From: an uncultured cyanobacterium
Lineage (GTDB): Bacteria > Cyanobacteriota > Cyanobacteriia > CACIAM-69d
Assembly: GCA_937883785.1 (NCBI GenBank)
Contig: CALGDE010000125.1
Location: 1 to 60,542, forward strand
Reading direction: 5' to 3'
Length of the DNA: 60,542 nt
Below the pieces are notes generated by a model that was not told the DNA's origin, searched no databases, and saw nothing but the letters and a program-made list of their open reading frames with translations. Below, in pieces: positions 5,405-12,126 of this stretch (the first letter of the stretch is position 1; each line of letters opens with the position of its first letter). The position numbers and the translations under genes are program-made.

Positions 5405-6063
5405 AATAATATCCCATGACCTGAATACTTTGAATGCTCTTTGGGCAAGGGCTGTGTGGGTTAGATAACGAATGATGCAATTAAAAAGTAGGGAAAAATG
5501 CAGAAAGCAACCGATATTTCTCGGTTTCAGTGCGTTTGCCCCCTGGTTCCGTGTGCTTCGAACCATTACTGAATCTGATCAGTCAATAAGGGATTGATTA
5601 GGGGAAAAAACGCTAAACGGGAGTAAAAAACATCGAGATTGTTAACGGTTATAACGCTCTATTGAATTGCCTTATGAATTACTCCTGTTGGGGGACATTG
5701 TCTACGGTCAGGGCTTCAATAACACCGTTGACTACCCCCATGCCCAGCCCTTTTAAGGGGGCAAGAGTTAGGTAAAGGTTCAGAGTTACACCACTTTTCG
5801 AAGTCCCGCCCTCTCCTTAGGCACAGGAATTTAGGATGAGGGCTGGAGAAGTTCTGCGTAAGTCCTACTTATTCACAGGGCGTGCTGATGGGATATCACT
5901 TCCCATTGGGTAAAACTTCTGGGGACTCAGTGAGTGTGTATCTCAGTAATCATCAGTAATCAATGGGGGCGTTCCGAGGGGCATTGATGACGCGCCCTAG
6001 CTGATATCATGTGCCGTGTCTTGTAATCTTCGATTTTTAGCGCCTCGGAAGCCAAGTGCGGTA
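5405..6063. other. gap2-murC divergent intergenic region
   Basis: About 660 bases between divergent gap2 and murC. No convincing ORF is seen. It contains a small hairpin, AACCGA at 5509-5514 with TCGGTT at 5521-5526, and a duplicated CAGTAATCA near 5943-5960. If the GTG at 6016 is the true murC start, the last 48 bases are coding. Confidence 0.6.
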
Positions 6064-7485
6064 ATGTTGACCCCGGTTGATTTTAGCGGTCGTCCTTTTC
6101 ATTTTATTGGCGTTGGCGGCATTGGTATGTCGGCGCTGGCTTATGTGCTTGCCCAGCGATCGCTCCCGGTATCTGGGTCAGACCAGCGGGAAAATCGCCT
6201 TACGGAAACGCTGCAGTCGTTGGGGGCAAAGTTTTTTCTAGGGCAAACCGCTGACAATATCCACCAGCTTTTGCCTGGGGCAGAGGTCAATGGGGAAGGC
6301 GCGAACAAAAATGGACTACCTCAAGTGGTGTGCTCCACGGCGATTCCTAAGGACAATGCGGAATATAAGGAGGCGATCGCCCAAGGCTGTCCAATTTTCC
6401 ATCGCTCAGATATTTTGGCGGGGATTATGACCCAGTACCGGGGCATTGCGATCGCCGGTACCCATGGAAAAACAACCACTAGTAGCGCTTTGGGGCAGAC
6501 CCTGTTGAAGGCGGGACTGGACCCCACAGTGATTGTGGGCGGTGAAGTGGCGGAGTGGGGTGGTAATGCCCACTTGGGCAACGGGGATTTGCTGGTGGCG
6601 GAAGCGGATGAGTCGGACGGGTCGTTGGTAAAGCTAACGGCGGATATTGGGGTGATCACCAATATTGAGCTGGATCATCCGGACCATTACGAGTCCCTCG
6701 ATAGCGTGATCAGCATTTTTCGCACCTTCGAGAAAAATTGCACAACCCTGGTGGGTTCCATTGATTGCCCCACGGTGAAAGCCAATTTTAAGCCGGATAT
6801 CACCTACAGCCTTGATCCTAGTTCTGGCGCTAACTACACTGCCGATGGAATCACGCTGGGCAGCCAGGGCGCGGCGGCGGATATTTATGAAAATGGTGAG
6901 CTTCTGGGGCGGCTTCAGCTTCAGCTGCTGGGAGAGCACAACTTAAGTAATGCTTTGGCGGTGGTGGCGATCGCCCGGCATTTGGGGGTGGATTTTTCGG
7001 CTTTGGCGGCGGGACTCGGCAGCTTTTCTGGGGCTCGGCGGCGCTTTGAACATCGCGGCACCCCCAGCGGCATTGCCTTTTACGACGACTATGCCCACCA
7101 CCCCAGCGAAATCCTTGTTACTTTAGCGGCGGCTCGCCAGCGCCTCGATTCCTCTAAGACAGGGCGGGTTGTTGCCGTATTTCAGCCCCACCGATTTAGT
7201 CGGGTTGCAGCATTTTTAGAGGAATTTGCTGTAGCATTTGGCGATGCCCACCGGGTAATCGTTACGGATGTGTATGCTGCCGGCGAGAAGAATGAAACGG
7301 GGCTTGATGGAGCTGCCATTGCCCAGGCGATCGCGAACCATCACCCCGCCGTCGATTATCAAAGCACTTTGGATAATGTGGTGTCGGGACTAACGGAAAT
7401 ATTGCAGTCGGGAGATCTGGTAATCTTTCTGGGGGCTGGCAATTTGAATCAGGTCATTCCAACAATAATTGAACGTTATACCTAA
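6064..7485 (+). CDS. murC: UDP-N-acetylmuramate--L-alanine ligase
   Basis: MurC adds L-alanine to UDP-N-acetylmuramic acid using ATP, the first peptide step of cytoplasmic peptidoglycan synthesis. The N-terminal glycine-rich site FHFIGVGGIGMSALAYVL, the ATP-binding AGTHGKTTTSS, the EADESDGS motif and the DDYAHHPSEI C-terminal motif are all visible and in the family order. The reading frame also opens at a GTG at 6016, giving 16 more residues. I prefer the ATG at 6064 (MLTPVDFSGRPF, 473 residues) because cyanobacterial homologues normally begin only a few residues before VDFSGRPFHF. Neither start has a strong Shine-Dalgarno sequence. murB follows on the same strand after 313 bases. Confidence 0.95.
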   Translation: MLTPVDFSGRPFHFIGVGGIGMSALAYVLAQRSLPVSGSDQRENRLTETLQSLGAKFFLGQTADNIHQLLPGAEVNGEGANKNGLPQVVCSTAIPKDNAEYKEAIAQGCPIFHRSDILAGIMTQYRGIAIAGTHGKTTTSSALGQTLLKAGLDPTVIVGGEVAEWGGNAHLGNGDLLVAEADESDGSLVKLTADIGVITNIELDHPDHYESLDSVISIFRTFEKNCTTLVGSIDCPTVKANFKPDITYSLDPSSGANYTADGITLGSQGAAADIYENGELLGRLQLQLLGEHNLSNALAVVAIARHLGVDFSALAAGLGSFSGARRRFEHRGTPSGIAFYDDYAHHPSEILVTLAAARQRLDSSKTGRVVAVFQPHRFSRVAAFLEEFAVAFGDAHRVIVTDVYAAGEKNETGLDGAAIAQAIANHHPAVDYQSTLDNVVSGLTEILQSGDLVIFLGAGNLNQVIPTIIERYT

Positions 7486-7541
7486 ACAAAAATCAGGTTA
7501 ACTTTGATTGTTTTGCCCCGTTTACTAGCTATTGTTCGAGA

Positions 7542-7581
7542 AAACTGTCATGGATTTATCTAGATAAAGAGAAGACAGTTT
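7542..7581. promoter_or_regulatory. 40-bp symmetric nested dyad between murC and murB
   Basis: Outer arms AAACTGTC (7542-7549) and GACAGTTT (7574-7581) enclose a perfect 14-bp palindrome TTTATCTAGATAAA (7555-7568). The two 5-base spacers are equal, so both dyads share one centre at 7561.5. No T-run follows on the plus strand, so a simple terminator is unlikely. It may be an operator or an mRNA stem-loop. Confidence 0.55.
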
Positions 7582-7782
7582 ACGTGTACTTATCTCCCAC
7601 TAAGAATTCCTAAGTTGATAGGAATAATGTTTAAGGGTCCATCAGGTTAACATCTGAGTGCCCATAGGATTGTGGTGAGAATTCCCGAATAACAACACTT
7701 TTCGTGTTTAAATTTCGATGATTTTGTTTTTGGCAAAATCGGTGCATCAAGGCTGCTAGGTATATTTGCGTTATTTCTGTTG

Positions 7783-7793
7783 GTGTGAGGAGT
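7783..7793 (+). promoter_or_regulatory. murB ribosome-binding site, exact complement of the Yfr1 core
   Basis: GTGTGAGGAGT ends five bases before the murB ATG and includes the Shine-Dalgarno GAGGAG. It is the exact reverse complement of ACUCCUCACAC, the conserved unpaired core of the cyanobacterial small RNA Yfr1. Pairing would mask the ribosome-binding site. The Yfr1 core is from memory of the literature; the role here is inference. Confidence 0.5.
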
Positions 7794-7798
7794 GTTAG

Positions 7799-8713
7799 AT
7801 GGTGACGGATCTTGGGGTCTTTGAAAAGCAGTTGCGATCGCAGGTGTCGCTGGCAAAGTCCACCACATTTCGGGTGGGTGGACCGGCAGAATGGTACATG
7901 GAGCCTGATAGTTTAGATTCCCTAGAAATGGCGATCGCCTGGGCGGACAAGCAGTCGGTGCCCATTACGCCCCTGGGAGCCGGGTCGAATTTACTGGTGA
8001 GCGATCGCGGCATTGATGGTTTGGTGATTGCCACCCGCAATCTACGCCAGGTAACCGTTGACCACGAACGTCTCCAAATTACCGCCACCGCCGGTACGCC
8101 TTTACCGTTGATTTCTTGGAAGGCAGCATCGTTAGGCTGGACCGGTATGGAATGGGCAGTGGGTATTCCTGGCACTGTGGGCGGCGCAGTGGTGATGAAT
8201 GCGGGAGCCCACGGCGGCGATACGGCGCGATCGCTGGCTCAGGTGCGCCTATTAAACCTAGAGACTAATTCCCTACGCCAGGCGGTGCCGGAAGAACTGG
8301 GCTACACCTATCGCACCTCTGATTTGCAAGGCAGCCATCAAATGGTGACCGAAGCCACGTTCCAGTTGGCCATGGGGGAAAGCGTTGAAGCAGTACGCAC
8401 CGTTACCAAGGATCAGCTAAGCCGCCGTCACGCCACTCAGCCCTATCGCTTGCCCAACTGCGGCAGCGTATTCCGCAATCCGGAGCCTCGGAAAGCAGCG
8501 CGGCTAATTGAAGAAGCTGGGCTAAAGGGATTCCAGGTGGGCGGTGCTCAAGTGGCCCATTTGCACGCCAATTTCATCGTTAATATCGACCAGGCAACGG
8601 CGTGGGATATTTCCTCGGTGATTAGTCGGGTGCGGGAAACGGTGTACGAAAAGTGGGATGTGATGTTGCACACCGAGGTGAAAATGCTCGGGCAGTTTCC
8701 GGTGGCGGCATAG
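7799..8713 (+). CDS. murB: UDP-N-acetylenolpyruvoylglucosamine reductase
   Basis: A 304-residue FAD enzyme that reduces UDP-GlcNAc-enolpyruvate with NADPH to UDP-MurNAc, the step before MurC. Family motifs are present in order: TTFRVGGPAEW (FAD domain start), PLGAGSNLLVSD, GIPGTVGGAVVMNAGAHGG (FAD binding), YRTSDLQG, NCGSVFRNP with the catalytic serine, and LIEEAGLKGFQVGGAQV plus the final HTEVKMLG. The start ATG at 7799 has an excellent Shine-Dalgarno (GAGGAG, five bases away). Together with upstream murC it makes a peptidoglycan precursor pair, but the 313-base gap with a strong dyad suggests separate control of murB. Confidence 0.95.
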   Translation: MVTDLGVFEKQLRSQVSLAKSTTFRVGGPAEWYMEPDSLDSLEMAIAWADKQSVPITPLGAGSNLLVSDRGIDGLVIATRNLRQVTVDHERLQITATAGTPLPLISWKAASLGWTGMEWAVGIPGTVGGAVVMNAGAHGGDTARSLAQVRLLNLETNSLRQAVPEELGYTYRTSDLQGSHQMVTEATFQLAMGESVEAVRTVTKDQLSRRHATQPYRLPNCGSVFRNPEPRKAARLIEEAGLKGFQVGGAQVAHLHANFIVNIDQATAWDISSVISRVRETVYEKWDVMLHTEVKMLGQFPVAA

Positions 8714-8967: not shown

Positions 8968-11900
8968 CTACGAAAATAGGGTGGTGGGATTAAGGGTGTT
9001 GGCGGCGAGGTTTTGTAAGGTGACGGAGCCGCCATTGAATACTAGACGGGTATTGTTGGCGTCGATCGCCGTAATTTGCACCGCCGCTGGAGTCAGCCCA
9101 CCGCCAAGGATGATCGCATCATTAGCTGGGTCAAAATCCGTAATGGCGTCGTTGCCAGAGCCGGGCATCACCATAAACTGATCCTGACCGCTGCCGCCGA
9201 TCAGCAAATCATCGCCCAATTCTCCCAACAGCCGATCATTGCCCGCGCCGCCAGTTAGGGTGTCGTTGCCGCGCCCGCCCTGGAGCAGATCGTTGCCATC
9301 GCCACCATTAAGCTGGTCATCGCCTTGGTTGCCAAACAGATGATCATCGCCGCGATCGCCCCCCATTAGATCACTGCCGCCGTTACCTAGCAGGCGATCA
9401 TTGCCCTGTCCTCCGTTGAGGCGATCGTTTTGGACGCTACCTAAAATCACATCGTCGCCGCCGTTGCCATTAATGCTGAGGGCGGTAGACAGTAATCGCC
9501 GATCTTCAAAGAAGTCGCCGCCGCCGCCGAGCCCCAGGGGAGAAACGCCCGGATTGCTATCCACGGCTCCAGTGAGGCGCACAATATCGCCGCCAGCTCC
9601 CAGCTGCCCAAAAATGGGAGTTTCCGAATCCACCTCAAATGCCAGCCCGGTGCGGCGACCGTCAATAAACACCTGTCCCGCCCCGTCGAAGTTTCGCACG
9701 GTAAACCGACGGCGCAGTTCAGGATTATTGGTCAGACCCAACGGCACCACCACCGTGGCATCGCCGGCAAACTGGTCGCCGTTTAGGTTCACTTCCGTGC
9801 GCGCTTCAAAATCGTTGAAGTTCAGGGCCACATCTTCACCGTTATTAGGCAGGTTGAGTTCCAAGGTGCCGCTAAAGTTACGGTTGCGAACGGATACGCT
9901 GCGATCGCCCCCGCCCAAGTTGGAGAAATCTAACGCCAAGTTGCCTCGCTGGTTAGACAACGGGCGTGGCAAGGTAAAGGATAGGGCTCCCTGGAATGAT
10001 GCTCCCGACAGAGCCACATTGCCCACGGTGTTTTCCAGGTCAATGCTTAAACTGCGGTTGCTGTTGGTTTCCACCGGCAAGTTGACCCGGGTTTGGGGGG
10101 AAATGCGCGGAGCAATGGTGATGGTGGTTTCGTCGTCCGTTAGGGGCGCCACACTAAAGGTATTGGTGGCAGGATTTTCCGTAACCTGGGGCGTGGGAAA
10201 CTGCACCGGATCCCCTGCCGCAACGAAATTAATGGTGCGGGTGCTGATGGCGTTGTCGGCAAAATCCTCCAGCACATTGCCTCGCAGTTCCAGGCGATAG
10301 GTGCTGCCGGGGTTCAGAGCGGGCACCGGATCTAAGGTTACTCGCCGCGCCACTTCGTCATACACACCGTTAAAGGGCACCTCGGCGATGGGGCTGCCAG
10401 ATGAATTAAACTCCGCCAAGGTGAATACTGGGGCGATCGCTGCATTGGTAAAGGGGCGATCGCTGTCGGCAATGCGTATGGGCTCGCTAAATTCAACGGT
10501 GAGGTTGCTGTTGGGGTCGGTGACCGTAGTGCCGTCGTCGGGCACAAAATTCACCCGAGGCGGCGAAACATCCCCTGATTGGGTCACAAAGTCGCGGGTG
10601 ATGGCGCTGGTAATTTCATTGGCGCCGTCGTCTTCCAGCCGATTGCCTGCAATTTCCACCCGGTAAGTGGTGGACGGATCCAGCGTGCCTGACGGCACCA
10701 CGGTAATGCTGCGCTGGGTGGTGTTATTAAAAGTCACCCGCTGGATAGGCACCGTGGCGTTGTCGGATACCCGCCGCACGGAAATAATTCCGGCGTTAGT
10801 GAGGTCCGTACCCAGTGCAGACCCGTTCGTCTGTTGCAGGCGATCGCCAAAATCCAGGGTCAAAGTGGGACCGTCTAGGGGCACGTTTCCAGCGGGGGAA
10901 ACGGAAATATCCCCCGCCAAAATGGACCGATTATCAATTTCCAAGGTGCGGGTGTTGCCCAAGTTGGTGGCGAACGGAATAGTTAGATTTGCCGCCTCTG
11001 CCCCAGCATTGGCCAACGTGGCACCACCCGTTAGGGCGAGGGACGTTACTGATAAGTCCGCCGTGGATTGGTCTGCTGCGCCGATGGAATAGTCCACCGT
11101 TAAAGTGGAGCCGCTGGCGTCGGCCACTAGCCGGGCGATCGCCCCATTATTCAACGTGGCTTCCAACGCCCCGCCATTGGCCGTAAAGTTCACCGACTGG
11201 TCAAAGGTGAACGTCAGACTCAAAATGTTATCGGCAGTGCGGGCGCTATAGACCCCGTTATTTTCCACGGAAGACACCGACTGCAGCACCGGCGGCGCCA
11301 GCACGTGATTATATTGCAGGCGCACCTTACGGCTAACGGCCAAATCAAAGCGCGGCTCACCCACCGTTACATTTAATTCCCAGTTGCCCCCTAGGCTAGC
11401 TGCCCCCACGGGCTGGGATGATGCCGCGATCGCAGCCCCTGTTAGCTGCCCCAACTGCTCCAGAAATGCTTTACCCCCATTACCAGCGCCCACTTCGCAG
11501 CCATAGACAACAACGGTGGGATTTTTAGCTGCTTCGGAAAACCAACGAGATAGGCGATCGCTCTGGGTGGTCAACGCTGCCTGGTCCACGGTGCCGCTGC
11601 CAAAAGCCAATGCTCCCGGCGAACCGTGGGTAAAAATATGCACCGTATCTGCCGGGTGCTGGGCGAGGGATCGGGTAATTTGAGCCAAACTATCGCGGCG
11701 GGAATCGAGCAAAATTACCGGAATTGACGACGGAATGCCGCTCAGCAGCAACACATGGTCGTCCACCGTGCGATCCACAAACGCCACCTGTCGCCGAGGT
11801 CGCCGATTTTTATCCTCCCGATCAAACCAATGCCCCATGGAGACGGGTAAAGCGGGTGTTTTAAACCGAGGAGATTGCGGGGGATGGGCTAAATAGCTGG

Positions 11901-12126
11901 AATGCCCGTTGCGGGACTGTCCTGAGTATTGCCCCAGATATTGCCCCAAATATTGAGCTAAGGATTGAAAGGGGCTCTGGGCGATCGCCGGACTCTCTGA
12001 CGTTGGACCGTTTAATATTTGACTGTTTGGTCTCTGGATATTGGGCGGTTGAGTGCTGAATGCTTGGCTATTAGGTGCCTGTTGAGTTAGTGCCTGTGTA
12101 AGGGGAAAACCTATCCGCTGTGCCAT
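8968..12126 (-). CDS. Secreted DUF4347 / Ig-like / RTX calcium-binding protein
   Basis: A 1052-residue multidomain protein. Residues 1-90 are low complexity, Q/S/P-rich. About 112-265 is a DUF4347 domain (VDDHVLLLSG, then IFTHGSPGAL with H167-G168 and VVVYGCEVGAGNGG with C210). From about 275 to 645 follow Ig-like repeats of the kind with LEIDNRSI, STTYRVEIAGN and GSTYRLELRGN. After a beta-rich region, about 885-976 is a run of RTX nonapeptides (GGxGxDxLxG), then a C-terminal segment of the type used for type I secretion. It is probably exported and bound to calcium at the cell surface. It has no cleavable signal peptide, as expected for type I export. The H-G and C positions of DUF4347 recall clan CD cysteine peptidases; no activity is proven. 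Confidence 0.88.
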   Translation of the reverse strand: MAQRIGFPLTQALTQQAPNSQAFSTQPPNIQRPNSQILNGPTSESPAIAQSPFQSLAQYLGQYLGQYSGQSRNGHSSYLAHPPQSPRFKTPALPVSMGHWFDREDKNRRPRRQVAFVDRTVDDHVLLLSGIPSSIPVILLDSRRDSLAQITRSLAQHPADTVHIFTHGSPGALAFGSGTVDQAALTTQSDRLSRWFSEAAKNPTVVVYGCEVGAGNGGKAFLEQLGQLTGAAIAASSQPVGAASLGGNWELNVTVGEPRFDLAVSRKVRLQYNHVLAPPVLQSVSSVENNGVYSARTADNILSLTFTFDQSVNFTANGGALEATLNNGAIARLVADASGSTLTVDYSIGAADQSTADLSVTSLALTGGATLANAGAEAANLTIPFATNLGNTRTLEIDNRSILAGDISVSPAGNVPLDGPTLTLDFGDRLQQTNGSALGTDLTNAGIISVRRVSDNATVPIQRVTFNNTTQRSITVVPSGTLDPSTTYRVEIAGNRLEDDGANEITSAITRDFVTQSGDVSPPRVNFVPDDGTTVTDPNSNLTVEFSEPIRIADSDRPFTNAAIAPVFTLAEFNSSGSPIAEVPFNGVYDEVARRVTLDPVPALNPGSTYRLELRGNVLEDFADNAISTRTINFVAAGDPVQFPTPQVTENPATNTFSVAPLTDDETTITIAPRISPQTRVNLPVETNSNRSLSIDLENTVGNVALSGASFQGALSFTLPRPLSNQRGNLALDFSNLGGGDRSVSVRNRNFSGTLELNLPNNGEDVALNFNDFEARTEVNLNGDQFAGDATVVVPLGLTNNPELRRRFTVRNFDGAGQVFIDGRRTGLAFEVDSETPIFGQLGAGGDIVRLTGAVDSNPGVSPLGLGGGGDFFEDRRLLSTALSINGNGGDDVILGSVQNDRLNGGQGNDRLLGNGGSDLMGGDRGDDHLFGNQGDDQLNGGDGNDLLQGGRGNDTLTGGAGNDRLLGELGDDLLIGGSGQDQFMVMPGSGNDAITDFDPANDAIILGGGLTPAAVQITAIDANNTRLVFNGGSVTLQNLAANTLNPTTLFS

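Follow-up and report, generated by a model that had tools for sequence, protein, structure and literature searches.

The small RNA Yfr1 is present across nearly all cyanobacteria. Its validated targets in Nostoc sp. PCC 7120 include, among others, murC, mraY, an alanine racemase gene, amiC2, and Omp85; through the conserved motif, Yfr1 reduces expression from the leaders of the first three, and the murC and mraY mRNAs increase upon Yfr1 depletion (PMC6974561). In Prochlorococcus MED4, the conserved motif pairs within the 5′ UTRs of the outer-membrane genes PMM1119 and PMM1121 (PMC6778093). The original prediction for the DNA analyzed here, a stretch of 60,542 nt from an uncultured cyanobacterium (hereafter the window), was that the ribosome-binding site of murB is a target of Yfr1. 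It rested on the premise that the reported Yfr1 targets are porin mRNAs, which is outdated as murC, mraY, and alanine racemase have already been validated in Nostoc (PMC6974561). Given these precedents, finding a peptidoglycan gene among the targets is not in itself an extension of the regulon, and judged by its sequence murB is a new predicted target within the known Yfr1 regulon, in a kind of system that is already known. A literature text search covering few subscription papers and no supplementary tables found no report of murB as a Yfr1 target.

The locus resembles the Yfr1–murC (alr5065) case of Nostoc sp. PCC 7120 in the small RNA, the adjacent gene pair, the location at a ribosome-binding site, and the predicted translational block (PMC6974561), but here the gene is murB and the predicted duplex is one contiguous stretch of 15 bp, whereas the common murC site of the relatives is two-part. 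With the Prochlorococcus MED4 case it shares pairing of the conserved motif in a 5′ UTR, and porins of this genome bear the site too, whereas the target considered here is a cytoplasmic peptidoglycan enzyme.

The murB gene (7799–8713, + strand) codes for a UDP-N-acetylenolpyruvoylglucosamine reductase of 304 amino acids (Pfam MurB_C, 1.4e-32; FAD_binding_4, 5.3e-23) and follows murC (6064–7485, +; 473 amino acids; Pfam Mur_ligase, Mur_ligase_M, and Mur_ligase_C), whose start codon ATG 6064 was set by alignment with relatives. The sequence GTGTGAGGAGT at 7783–7793 (+) is an 11-nt complement of the Yfr1 core and is separated from the murB ATG (7799) by the five bases GTTAG, exactly as had been predicted. 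Since an in-frame TAG occupies 7796–7798, an upstream murB start is excluded and ATG 7799 is fixed. The leader reads ...GTTATTTCTG TTGGTGTGAGGAGTG TTAG ATG, and the element TTGGTGTGAGGAGTG (7780–7794, +), which overlaps the murB Shine-Dalgarno sequence, is the exact complement of CACUCCUCACACCAA in the genome's own Yfr1. The true match thus encompasses 15 contiguous bases and is longer than the 11 initially described; about five of these bases (AGGAG) are needed for the Shine-Dalgarno sequence and about ten are surplus to that need, compared to the five of 11 claimed before. Apart from 7783–7793, the window contains no match to the 11-mer with fewer than two mismatches. The murC–murB intergenic region including the murB leader (7486–7798, +) is present in a single copy, and a genome search found no second one. 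A consensus scan of this 313-nt gap, of a kind that is weak for cyanobacteria, yielded no terminator-like or sigma-70-like match, and the murB leader contained no known structured RNA of Rfam and nothing credible at a relaxed threshold either. Convergent with murB lies an ORF of 1052 amino acids (8968–12126, −) that by eye has a DUF4347-like N-terminal part and C-terminal GGxGxD-type calcium-binding repeats.

A yfr1 gene is present in the same genome in one copy (C157:16472–16534, L001), which was found by an Rfam RF01116 search with a score of 57.5 bits against a gathering threshold of 38; the ORF upstream of it is read as a putative IMP dehydrogenase. The gene reads ...GTTCACTCCTCACACCAAACTG..., and in the predicted fold the ACUCCUCACAC core is unpaired between two hairpins. 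Predicted binding of this Yfr1 to the murB leader is strong (−19.0 kcal/mol over the 15 complementary bases just upstream of the start codon) and ranks first among the 36 ORF starts of the window (mean −4.1 kcal/mol, sd 3.2; second best −10.4). On these predictions, murB is computationally well supported as a Yfr1 target.

The comparison with other genomes, which had been suggested as a check on conservation and, if conservation failed, as a refutation, gave a divided answer: the murB site is kept in one sister genome, and every other genome examined lacks it at murB and usually has it at murC. Among 130 murB leaders, each scored at every in-frame start, only the two of this genus fell below −12 kcal/mol (−22.1 and −17.3), followed by a next best value of −11.9 and a median of −4.1. 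In the sister, the last T of the 11-mer is replaced by C; with only two genomes and intergenic regions that are similar overall, conservation within the genus is weak evidence if taken alone. The lack of conservation outside the genus reflects a difference in location: the site of the relatives is at murC and that of this genus at murB. Predicted Yfr1 binding below −12 kcal/mol was obtained for 102 of 113 cyanobacterial murC leaders (median −20.0 with a typical Yfr1), although several offsets were tried around each start, which biases the values toward stronger binding. The arrangement with a site at murC and not at murB was seen in Nostoc, Moorena, Microcoleus, Kamptonema, Limnothrix, and others. 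The usual murC site in relatives consists of GTGTGGTGT plus GAGGAG, an example being GGTGTGGTGTGTGAGGAGTaaaaATG in genome G023. About 100 cyanobacterial murC leaders (e.g., L071, L087, and L196) show a strongly conserved GGTGTGGTGTGGTGT repeat before the Shine-Dalgarno sequence that is able to pair with the Yfr1 3′ flank ACACCACAC, which makes the murC site two-part, and this pairing may be why the 3′ flank of Yfr1 is conserved.

The murC leader of the genome studied here (6020–6063, +) is without the Yfr1 site of the relatives; its best match is 7 of 11 bases. Predicted binding at the annotated start is −4.4 kcal/mol here and −3.4 kcal/mol in the sister, which reaches −8.5 kcal/mol if offsets are allowed. 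Both leaders have kept a TGATATSATGTG-like promoter element and miss the GTGTGGTGTG stretch. Weak murC leaders were otherwise found in Pseudanabaena, the small-genome family f2, and a few others. Pseudanabaena-like (L206, L212, and L104) and f2 genomes (L194, L207, and L213) have no strong Yfr1 site at either murC or murB. A general rule by which loss at murC is compensated by gain at murB was rejected for this reason.

The MurC tree, with G018/G050 as the root, joined the genus first with its sister species G001 (support 1.0), next with G002 (0.85), and then with Limnothrix-like genomes (0.96). A strong murC site is kept in G003–G005 and Limnothrix. As the tree nests the genus in this site-bearing, Limnothrix-like family, its state, with the murC site lost and the murB site gained, is derived. 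A better description of the murB site is that a known Yfr1 input was displaced, within a single genus, from murC to the neighboring murB.

Yfr1 itself differs in the same lineage. The stretch after CTCCT is CACACCACAC in ten of 13 Yfr1 genes, CACACCAAAC in this genus (flank CCAAAC vs. the usual CCACAC), and CACACCACTT in G002, where the flank is altered to CCACTTTTTC. At the murC leaders of relatives, predicted binding by the Yfr1 of this genome falls approximately 2 to 8 kcal/mol short of that reached by the Yfr1 native to each relative. Strict co-variation of the changed base with the murB site was rejected, because the Yfr1 of relatives is predicted to bind the murB leader of this genome equally well (−19.5 to −23.1 kcal/mol). 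According to these energy models, the CCAAAC flank would weaken pairing with the usual murC sites and leave pairing with the murB site unaffected; the base change would fit a relaxed pressure from the lost murC site, and murB pairing does not need it. That the small RNA input to this two-gene wall unit was transferred to the neighbor gene, together with a matching change in Yfr1 (CCAAAC for CCACAC), is a tentative reading to which we lend somewhat less than even credence.

A competitor to such a transfer is that two separate events took place, the murB site having been gained independently and the murC site lost for unrelated reasons. Pseudanabaena and family f2, which lost the murC site without a gain at murB, speak for this possibility, as does the nearest other genus, G002, with a weakened murC site (−10.1 kcal/mol at the annotated start) and no murB site. 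So does the masked murB leader, which in local alignments showed no detectable homology to 76 murC promoter regions (p ~0.26 against shuffles) and for which an origin as a copy of the murC promoter-leader was rejected, in a test of little power since the positive control, with the murC promoter of this genome, gave a weak result too (p ~0.10). On the other side, both changes fall in one lineage, and the two genes concerned are neighbors that belong to one pathway. We judge separate origins to be doubtful, at roughly one chance in three; moreover, they concern history, lead to the same present-day arrangement, and are compatible with the present function proposed here for the murB site.

A different objection is that murB simply has a strong Shine-Dalgarno sequence whose likeness to the Yfr1 complement arose by chance. 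Because the Yfr1 core contains CUCCU, any AGGAG ribosome-binding site pairs partly with it, and 300 shuffled murB leaders in which the Shine-Dalgarno sequence was kept averaged −9.6 kcal/mol (sd 2.4) with a lowest value of −23.6, so that the binding energy taken alone is no proof. Likewise, the pattern GKKKKAGGAGT-N2-10-ATG occurs ten times genome-wide and its reversed control 11 times. Without such an excess, one AGGAGT site whose 5′ bases are rich in G and T does not stand out, and it is the particular sequence that is of note. However, about ten of the 15 matched bases lie outside the Shine-Dalgarno core. The exact 11-mer occurs four times in the 4.84-Mb genome, compared to none for the reversed control pattern, namely in the murB leader, in Yfr1's own complement, within a 510-amino-acid ORF, and on contig C167 without a start codon after it; by these pattern searches, on which all genome-wide statements are based, murB is the sole gene start preceded by an exact 11-mer. 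A further repeated sequence of this genome, GTTTGAGGAGTTTCAATG, is identical at C23:549, C86:6649, and C149:99 and is probably a repeated element.

The shorter pattern GTGTGAGGA-N2-14-ATG has 11 matches in the genome vs. two for its reversed control. Nine of them start long ORFs, which are six TonB-dependent receptors (with a TonB-dependent receptor plug domain and mostly also AMIN), two SLH/OprB porins, and murB; the other two are Yfr1's own complement and the start of an 8-codon ORF. The same pattern recovered an equivalent set in G001 (four receptors, two porins, and murB), and in this genus GTGTGAGGA-ATG therefore marks a set of envelope genes that includes little else, within which murB has the strongest predicted Yfr1 pairing. 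By sequence resemblance, the pattern preceded porin-like ORFs in two other family members, and porin-like ORFs and murC, plus several matches with short ORFs only, in G023. The six receptor genes with GTGTGAGGA at the ribosome-binding site (L053, L054, L056, L057, L061, and L062) are located on contigs C10, C12, C72, C78, C142, and C150 of this genome, suggesting Yfr1 control of a whole receptor family in this genus. mraY, a validated target in Nostoc, was considered and rejected as a target here, as it has no site and its predicted binding did not go beyond −8.2 kcal/mol. That the 9-mer sites at the remaining long ORFs all belong to envelope genes, and that the neighboring murC bears an equivalent site in most other cyanobacteria, further argue against coincidence, which we regard as improbable, and the claim that murB is a target is, as far as sequence can tell, likely correct. 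Activation or stabilization of murB by Yfr1, for which the activated Nostoc target amiC2 would be a precedent, is very improbable, because the amiC2 interaction lies further upstream and nearly all repressed targets are bound just upstream of the start, as would be the case for murB (PMC6974561).

We consider it quite probable that the murB leader is a Yfr1 target whose site would lower MurB synthesis, and that the Yfr1 input to murC–murB has moved from murC to murB. By analogy with the described targets, pairing would occur in cells and repress murB. Pairing would involve 7780–7794 on the murB side and, in Yfr1, the unpaired core together with the 3′ flank, and would cover the murB Shine-Dalgarno sequence; this masking would block 30S binding and lower the amount of MurB, and the murB mRNA would probably be destabilized as well. 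In most other cyanobacteria the input would act on the preceding gene, at the ribosome-binding site of murC, and in this genus at murB. If murC and murB are cotranscribed, Yfr1 would now affect only murB and leave murC alone, provided that mRNA decay does not extend in the upstream direction.

The arrangement suggests that the same stretch of wall building is still under Yfr1, via a different gene. Ortholog-based searches would miss murB, since murB genes elsewhere do not share the site. The transfer together with the change in Yfr1 would, if true, be a documented re-wiring of a small RNA and its target in which the regulated pathway segment is preserved. The predicted murC sites in most cyanobacteria and the swap to murB in a lineage that lost the murC site would together point to control of early peptidoglycan synthesis as one of the Yfr1 functions maintained by selection, and the genus and its relatives would form a clean natural pair for studying how a small RNA regulon is re-wired.
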